DNA of 64,000 nucleotides from Bacteroidota bacterium. GTDB taxonomy: Bacteria > Bacteroidota > Bacteroidia > CAIKAF01. The stretch is taken from positions 1 through 64,000 of the forward strand of contig VGMT01000001.1 of NCBI GenBank assembly GCA_016866335.1, read 5' to 3'. The notes below the pieces were generated by a model. The model did no database searches and was not told where the DNA came from. It saw only the letters and a list, made by a program, of their open reading frames with translations. Shown here in pieces: positions 3,090 to 55,928 of the stretch (position 1 is the first letter of the stretch; each line of letters opens with the position of its first letter). Made by a program: the position numbers and the translations under genes.

Positions 3090-3235
3090 GCGGTAGGGAT
3101 TGAGCCGGGTAGCGCGCAAAGGGCGAAGTGCGGGGTTCCGCGTGCTGCGGAGGCGACTTCAGGAGCCACCGCAAAGCCGCTGGACCCCCCACTGAGCCCT
3201 GCGTACTACCGGTGAAAGCCCGCAACCGCCCCCCC
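3090..3235 (-). repeat. Dispersed covarying hairpin repeat, copy A
   Basis: One of seven related intergenic elements. Strand is given so that the element reads GGGCGG...CGGGCTTTCACCGGTAG...CTACCCGG...CAATCCC. It begins about 10 bp after the DUF1295 stop codon and is preceded (in its own direction) by a T7 run. Its variable third stem pairs GGGCTCAGTGGGGGGTCC with GGAACCCCGCACTTCGCCC imperfectly. The apical stem is GCGG.GGC/GCC.CCGC. Track ORFs 3019..3252 and 3128..3325 are translations of this element and are not genes. Confidence 0.88.
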
Positions 3236-6342: not shown

Positions 6343-6485
6343 GGGCGGCAAACGGGCTTTCGCGGGTTGTCCGCGGGTGCCGTAAGGCGGGCCCAGCGGG
6401 CTTGCGGTGGCTCCTAAAGTCGCCTCCGCGCCGCGCGGGCCCGGCTACGGCACCCTTGCGGGCAACCCTGCTCAATCCCTGCCGC
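6343..6485 (+). repeat. Dispersed covarying hairpin repeat, copy B
   Basis: Element in the gap between the symporter 3' end and dnaX start, antisense to both. Third-stem arms are GGGTGCCGTA and TACGGCACCC, perfectly complementary, flanking GGGCCC/GGGCCC. The second stem is GGGTTG...CAACCC instead of GGTAG...CTACC, a compensatory change. The 3' outer arm TGCCGC is followed by an extra GGGCGGC. Track ORFs 6218..6529 and 6240..6497 are spurious. Nothing else is visible in the 6207-6584 gap. Confidence 0.9.
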
Positions 6486-16992: not shown

Positions 16993-17132
16993 GGGCGGCA
17001 GCCGGGCTTTCACCGGTAGTCCTCAGCAAAAGGGGCTGGGGCAGCGGTCTTGCGTTGGCTCCCAAGGTCGCCTCCGCGCCACGCGCCCCAGGCCCTTTCG
17101 CTATGCGGGCTACCGCGTTCAATCCCTGCCGC
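16993..17132 (+). repeat. Dispersed covarying hairpin repeat, copy C
   Basis: Reads in the direction of flanking genes, just after the LuxR-type gene, preceded by two T6 runs. Outer stem GGGCGGCA/TGCCGC; second stem GGTAGTCC/GGGCTACC; third-stem arms AGCAAAAGGGGCTGGGGC and GCCCCAGGCCCTTTCGCT are complementary apart from small bulges. Track ORF 17055..17276 is spurious. Confidence 0.9.
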
Positions 17133-29288: not shown

Positions 29289-29431
29289 GCGGGCGGGATT
29301 GAACTAGGTAGCTGACCCTATGGAAAGCCTAGGGCCCGCGTGCTGTGCAGGCGACTTTAGGAGCCCGCGCAAAGCCGCTGGGCCCTTGGCTTTTTGAGGG
29401 GCACTACCTGTGAAAGCCCGAGAGCCCGCCC
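29289..29431 (-). repeat. Dispersed covarying hairpin repeat, copy D
   Basis: Lies between convergent genes. In its own direction: T6, GGGCGGG outer stem, CGGGCTTTCAC, AGGTAGT, third-stem arms CCCCTCAAAAAGCCAAGGGCCC-like and GGGCCCTAGGCTTTCCATAG-like, and TTCAATCCCGCCCGC at the 3' end. Apical stem GCGCGGGC/GCCTGCAC has one mismatch. No separate terminator is seen for either flanking gene, so the element may serve as one. Confidence 0.9.
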
Positions 29432-42935: not shown

Positions 42936-43078
42936 GCGGGCGGGATTGAACCAGGTTGCCCGCAAGGCCAAAAGCCAAAGGGCCCGCGAGCTGCGCAGGC
43001 GACTTCAGGAGCCCGCGCAAAGCCGCTGGGGCCTAGGCTTTTGGCCGCGGACTACCGGTGAAAGCCCGAAACCCGCCC
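42936..43078 (-). repeat. Dispersed covarying hairpin repeat, copy E
   Basis: Best-preserved copy. Located between divergent lpd and DUF4199 genes. Outer stem GGGCGGG/CCCGCCC is perfect; second stem ACCGGTAGTCCGC against GCGGGCAACCTGGT has one mismatch; third-stem arms GGCCAAAAGCC and GGCTTTTGGCC are perfect; apical stem GCGCGGGC/GCCTGCGC is intact around loop TCCTGAAGTC. A T7 run precedes it. Track ORF 42946..43134 is spurious. Confidence 0.93.
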
Positions 43079-46171: not shown

Positions 46172-46245
46172 GGTCCGGTAGTTCAGTTGGTTAGAATACA
46201 TGCCTGTCACGCATGGGGTCGCGGGTTCGAGTCCCGTCCGGACCG
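46172..46245 (+). tRNA. tRNA-Asp (anticodon GTC)
   Basis: Cloverleaf by eye: acceptor GGTCCGG pairs with CCGGACC, discriminator G at 46245; anticodon stem CATGC/GCATG around loop CTGTCAC with anticodon GTC; T arm GCGGG TTCGAGT CCCGT. No CCA is encoded. It is located 43 bp before repeat copy F. Confidence 0.97.
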
Positions 46246-46287
46246 CTTCAAAACTTCAAGGATTTCCTTGGAGTTTTTTTTGTTTTT

Positions 46288-46429
46288 GGGCGGGTGCGGG
46301 CTTTCAGAGCTAGTCCGCCGTCTGCAGTCCCGGTTGCAGCGGGCTCAGGGTAGCTCCCAAGGTCGCTCCCTGCTCCACGCGCAACCCGGCCAGCATCCGT
46401 TTCGGGCTAGCCTCTTCAATCCCTCCCGC
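46288..46429 (+). repeat. Dispersed covarying hairpin repeat, copy F
   Basis: Most divergent full copy. It keeps GGGCGGGTGCGGGCTTTC and TTCAATCCCTCCCGC, but stem sequences differ with matching changes: AGAGCTAG against CTAGCCTCT where others have ACCGGTAG against CTACCNGGT, and apical CAGGGTAGC/GCTCCCTG where others have GGC/GCC. T8 and T5 runs precede it. Confidence 0.88.
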
Positions 46430-55709: not shown

Positions 55710-55894
55710 TGATATGGATAAATGCCATACTCAAATTGAAATGGCAAATATTGGCCTTGTTCCTCTATGTGTTCTCATTCGGCCTTTTAGTCTCCGCTCA
55801 AACAGAAGACAACTTTAATCCCCGAAGCAGTTGGCGCGAGGAAGGCAAGGCGACCCCGGGAGCCACTGCCTGCCCGCTGCCAACAGCCTGTTGA
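55709..55894 (+). pseudogene. Truncated secreted-protein gene fused into repeat copy G
   Basis: Its ATG overlaps the TonB receptor stop as TAATG. The first 37 residues are a signal peptide plus mature start (ALFLYVFSFGLLVSAQTEDN), then at about 55818 the frame enters repeat G and ends at 55892. The tail after NFNP is repeat sequence, not protein-like. The remainder of the original gene is not found before the next gene (56033). So this is probably a partner gene of the receptor broken by deletion or element insertion. Confidence 0.6.
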
Positions 55895-55928
55895 CTGCGG
55901 ACTATAACGGAAAGCCCGTAACCCGCCC
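55818..55928 (-). repeat. Dispersed covarying hairpin repeat, copy G (3'-shortened)
   Basis: Retains the 5' part (GGGCGGGTTACGGGCTTTC, TAGTCCGC), a third stem with GTTGGC/GCCAAC and GCAGT/ACTGC, and an apical GGCAGTGGC / GCCTTGCC. The 3' block TTCAATCCC...GCCCGC is missing and replaced by the coding start of the stub gene. About 111 bp versus 140-146 bp elsewhere. Confidence 0.75.

Follow-up and report, generated by a model that had tools for sequence, protein, structure and literature searches.

Hairpin repeats of the ERIC/IRU, YPAL/RU-2 and CIR types occur in about 10^2 copies, and bcr1 of Bacillus cereus is a dispersed, structured element of about 155 nt. ERIC/IRU (127 bp), YPAL/RU-2 (168 bp) and the CIR of Caulobacter (about 110 bp) are intergenic repeats forming long hairpins (PMC2229807), while REPs have 20-40 bp and carry a GTAG tag (PMC3733652). 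Flavo-1 (RF01705), an element of the Bacteroidota, was listed by Weinberg et al. (PMC2864571) as a likely RNA that is not cis-regulatory. On Flavo-1 and Bacteroidota palindromes, our literature search gave nothing beyond the Rfam source and papers on REPs in general.

The element described here was found in a window of 64,000 nucleotides (the whole stretch of DNA analysed) from the 2.45 Mb genome of an uncultured lake bacterium of the Flavobacteriales (G000). It is 140-145 nt long, has about 60-77% G+C and the ends GGGCGG...CCGC, and resembles ERIC/IRU, YPAL/RU-2 and CIR in size, intergenic placement and long hairpin; most repeats of these types, however, are rich in A+T, end in TA and have target duplications. 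None of 189 copies overlaps a called gene, which is what is expected of an ERIC-like MITE, a short palindrome that is dispersed between genes and encodes none itself. The REP/BIME and RAYT systems share with it the dispersed extragenic palindromes, the conserved mismatches and the many copies, but differ in length, in the ends and in conservation in place. Measured against the REP/ERIC kind, the element is larger, G+C-rich, modular and unusually well kept in place. From bcr1 it differs in sequence and phylum, and its compensation avoids G.U. Identity with REP/RAYT was rejected, since no Y1 (PF01797) transposase was found in G000 and Y1 presence across relatives does not track the element; the other copy-rich genomes searched, G001 and G014, also gave no Y1 match.

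No Rfam family is matched by the long element, whether in the window, at copy F or at further loci. Flavo-1 had no match in the window at the gathering threshold; relaxing the limit to E 10 for copy F and to E 1 for four other loci gave none either, and its 76 positions compare with 142 in the long family. Short G000 elements of the form CCGGGCTTTCCGCTGCAATGCC..GGCATTTCCACTGCAATCCC, at L002:1501-1562 and L003:1501-1569 (+) and L004:1501-1563 (-), match Flavo-1 at 28-30 bits, below the cut-off of 42. These three have the outer foot of the long family, CGGGCTTTC/AATCCC, and are probably a related shorter family.

Copies in the window and in related genomes

A covariance model built from six window copies (R1) was used to search G000, where at least 150 full-length copies were found (150 of 438 candidates were scored), and further copies lie outside those 150. 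In the window, copies are located at 3090-3231 (minus strand, 134.8 bits), 6343-6485 (plus strand, 142.8 bits), 16993-17132 (plus strand, 134 bits), 29289-29431 (minus strand, 127 bits) and 42936-43078 (minus strand, 148.5 bits), besides copy F at 46287-46429 (plus strand), which covers model positions 1-142 and reaches 119 bits with R1, a model partly built from it. By synteny, the sites of the second and fourth of these copies are also occupied in G003, the place syntenic to 16993-17132 is without a copy in G003, and at 42936-43078 G001 has a different version and G003 and G004 have none. The degenerate copy at 55798-55928 (minus strand, 28.9 bits), which lost its 3' part and whose counterparts in G001 and G003 are complete, is a rare case of decay in a family where fragments are nearly absent (1 of 202 profile hits).

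The sister species G001 has 72 copies in 831 kb, corresponding by scaling to about 215. A second model (R2) found from 116 to at least 150 copies in each of five congeners, 147 in G014, from a sister genus, and 0-5 in the remaining family members; the family-level search covered 16 genomes, and the order-level search took in the same 16. Three species of the genus of G014 have 0-3 copies, suggesting a lineage-specific burst or acquisition. The related genomes are MAGs of uncultured Flavobacteriales or Bacteroidetes, whose isolate names point to lakes, an estuary or an inland sea. Some copies in G002 and G005 have the same architecture with different loop words.

Flanks were studied in 128 copies cut from G000, the sample also used for alignment. 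A T-rich tract precedes the element in all gene contexts, with T at 61-73% at positions -8 to -2. A terminator role was rejected, because this T-run precedes the hairpin and does not stand behind it. On the 3' side most copies show a weak (A/G)GG(C/G)C(C/G)C consensus at +1 to +7, which echoes the 5' GGGCGG start.

Structure of copy F

Copy F lies directly downstream of a tRNA-Asp gene (46172-46245) and its terminator, whose T-run doubles as the T-rich tract of the element (46274-46287), and an ortholog is present behind the same tRNA-Asp in G001, G003 and G004. Folded alone, copy F gives one long hairpin (-71 kcal/mol, z -2.7). The outer stem pairs AGAGCTAG (46306-46313) with CTAGCCTCT (46407-46415, with one bulged C), as indicated by the sequence, the fold and the count of arms. 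On its outer side the stem is bordered by an internal loop whose two sides, CGGGCTTTC (46297-46305) and TTCAATCCC (46415-46423), are near-invariant in alignment A4. The apical stem (46346-46372), in which CAGGG..AGC (46346-46354) faces GCT..CCCTG (46365-46372), belongs to an exchangeable inner module.

The first-pass annotation had proposed that both stems of copy F carry compensatory changes around unchanged loops, a pattern it took as typical of a functional fold. The sequence blocks and their coordinates agree with the letters, and the matching stem changes are real; the observation is, as a whole, partly confirmed. With respect to the ACCGGTAG type, one of 52 left arms and present in 13 of 127 copies, the outer stem does show matched pairing, but the change concerns three positions per arm, all three matched, and not five bases. 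When copy F was compared with the commonest pair at each of 47 reliable pairs, 27 were unchanged, 5 changed on one side and 15 on both (13 of them still Watson-Crick). Since copy F pairs exactly the claimed stretches when it is folded alone, the alignment is not the source of this pairing.

Among the 127 copies of G000 the outer arm of copy F is unique and 8/8 complementary to its partner. This arm is identical in four species (G000, G001, G003 and G004), which all keep the outer stem; in the middle stem, G000 and G001 differ from G003 and G004. F-type outer stems (CGGGCTTTCAGAGCTAGTCCGC) were also seen at L222, L223 and L225 in the G003 and G004 assemblies, beyond the tRNA-Asp site.

Covariation and rates of change

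In the 128 aligned copies 94.2% of the cells are paired, against 77.4% after shuffling, and of the 51 pairs 40 show two-sided changes (948 such cells, where shuffling gives 271). The covariation score is 0.393, compared with 0.107 for shuffled and 0.03-0.06 for slid alignments. When divergent relatives were added, 49 of the 51 pairs showed two-sided changes. The values from both alignments are somewhat in favour of the model because the alignments were fitted to it. Covariation across the family is far beyond chance. For the outer stem, nearly all of the 52 different left arms in 127 copies have a matching partner about 105 nt away, with agreement at 5-8 of 8 positions. Close paralogs differ by 1.21 one-sided and 0.34 two-sided changes per pair; with growing distance the one-sided changes reach a plateau near 3, while the two-sided ones rise to 14.7. 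An excess of one-sided changes in close paralogs and of two-sided changes in distant ones is as compensatory evolution predicts.

Conservation between species was evaluated at the 35 sites for which both flanks could be aligned in G001: 32 of them hold a copy in the same orientation. In vertical pairs substitutions amount to 1.5% in invariant loops, 5.7% in paired stems and 16% in variable unpaired positions, all of them lower bounds since the pairs were picked partly by high identity; the flanks differ by 14-39% according to the 10-bp bin, and genes by about 20%. It is a new observation that copies retain their place and orientation in a sister species and change less than genes do. Stem cells of orthologs show 52 one-sided and 24 two-sided changes; from the single-site rate about 3 two-sided ones would be expected. 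This excess and the low loop rate give good support to a fold that is maintained and has conserved loops. Where relatives have no copy, the site has diverged too far, carries an internal deletion or has been replaced, and a target duplication was not established. At the G001 counterpart (C46:2693-2840) of L137:2065-2207 the element is missing and A/T-containing inverted repeats (AGACGCAAAATTTTGCGTCTC) stand in its place.

Exchange of the inner hairpin

Several sites keep their outer frame from one species to the next but carry unrelated inner hairpins; at L154 2079-2221, for example, outer identity is 1.0 and inner identity 0.60. Within G000, 253 pairs of copies are alike in the inner part (at least 93%) and not in the outer one. 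This swapping of inner hairpins among copies that retain their outer frame is also new. Since a hairpin moved as a block carries both arms with it, covariation of the inner stem overstates compensatory mutation, and some of the apparent compensation stems from the exchange of modules. For the same reason the apical change of copy F, although matched, need not be a compensatory mutation, and the first-pass reading is partly supported. Clean compensatory evidence comes from the outer stem only, in which about 105 bases separate the two arms.

Gene context and arrangement

Between convergent genes we counted 66 copies, and between divergent genes 30, a preference for convergent neighbourhoods. 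Copies between tandem genes are sense in 47 cases and antisense in 46, indicating random orientation. Many copies lie 10-50 bp downstream of a stop codon on the same strand.

Neighbouring copies no more than 6 kb apart are opposite in orientation in 27 of 29 cases in G001, G003 and the window and in 28 of 34 in the G000 list, counts that are not fully independent because the pairs are partly orthologous. The bias, another new observation, weakens at larger distances, and its simplest reason is deletion between direct repeats. A regular spacing of copies was rejected, the gaps being about random (CV 0.98). No transposase was evident in the translated genes between close copy pairs, inspected by eye.

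DNA or RNA

Covariation is usually taken as proof of a structured RNA, although the first-pass annotation named neither RNA nor DNA. Such an RNA, which might stabilise mRNA 3' ends or be a small RNA, in line with what is assumed for Flavo-1, has to be considered. It would account for stems that covary even with divergent relatives and for the copies shortly past stop codons, and it gains from the weak Flavo-1 matches of the short elements, Flavo-1 itself being listed as a likely RNA. With mismatches counted once per cluster on the plus strand, G.T:A.C was 25:63 in G000, 44:37 in G001 and 69:100 pooled, whereas tRNA stems of the same genomes gave 12:0 (Fisher p 4e-5 against the pooled counts). 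A minus-strand RNA, which the G000 asymmetry could have indicated, was rejected, because the asymmetry was not repeated in G001 and folding energies show no minus-strand preference. The minus-strand reading has a weak G.U excess that comes from G000 only; as the minus strand favours purine-purine mismatches and the pooled plus-strand counts have more A.C than G.T, a weak signal of a minus-strand RNA is possible.

The Bacteroidota-type promoter motif is not enriched on either side or strand of the copies, and copies at divergent gene pairs are equally well paired (0.953). Given that G.T is preferred on neither strand, the missing promoter enrichment and the random tandem orientation, selection at the RNA level is not supported. 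The mismatch, orientation and promoter results speak against an RNA function without excluding one, and the pattern of pairing in the copies suggests that selection acts on the structure in its DNA form rather than in an RNA. We thus regard the structured RNA as unlikely.

Mobility and host function

The copies could also be selfish, non-autonomous mobile elements like MITEs or REPs, of no function to the host and mobilised by a putative enzyme. Close paralogs of 97-99% identity at unrelated places, the high copy number and the burst in G014, not shared by three congeners, would fit, and from this patchiness together with paralogs up to 99% identical it follows that amplification happens. Old copies, however, are intact and in place, their loops are far more conserved than the flanks, decayed fragments hardly occur, and the Y1/RAYT transposase is absent in G000, G001 and G014. 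We consider a purely selfish origin of these properties improbable, although part of the conservation may be for spread rather than for host function. That two-sided changes arose mainly by block exchange and by repair templated from the other arm (quasi-palindrome correction), pairing itself being hardly selected, agrees with the swapping of inner modules as blocks and with two-sided changes that are almost always Watson-Crick, but is very doubtful, since correction would erase the mismatched loops, the most conserved part of the element, and since distant outer arms covary in 52 combinations.

The explanation that we prefer, and hold to be somewhat more probable than its negation, is a genus-level family of DNA hairpins (quasi-palindromes) dispersed between genes, of the REP/ERIC kind and acting as DNA in the form of chromosomal sites read by a protein. 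Its computed part is shown: Watson-Crick stems of a fixed 140-145 nt with sequence-conserved mismatched loops, kept in place, with exchange of the inner hairpin. The preference for convergent gene neighbourhoods, the signs of amplification and the mismatch asymmetry of the minus strand weigh against this explanation. The element would act as a cruciform, or as a hairpin formed when replication makes the DNA single-stranded, and the T-rich flank would ease cruciform extrusion. A putative host protein would recognise the shape made of stem and mismatches, each copy being a putative chromosomal binding site, as proposed for REP/BIME sites, with no gene product. Ectopic gene conversion would spread inner hairpins among copies, and direct-repeat deletion would remove copies, leaving close neighbours in opposite orientation.

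Implications

It is conceivable, and we propose it only tentatively, that the genus carries about 150-215 individually maintained hairpin sites, selected as folded DNA and read by a putative structure-specific protein, which would form a new architectural or replication-linked class; their outer stems would stay with the locus while inner hairpins are exchanged. A strongly covarying family without G.U preference, randomly oriented and with block exchange, is a warning that DNA hairpins can yield large covariation. The old question of the role of dispersed palindromes becomes testable here, as single copies are conserved better than genes and could be removed individually in a cultured relative.
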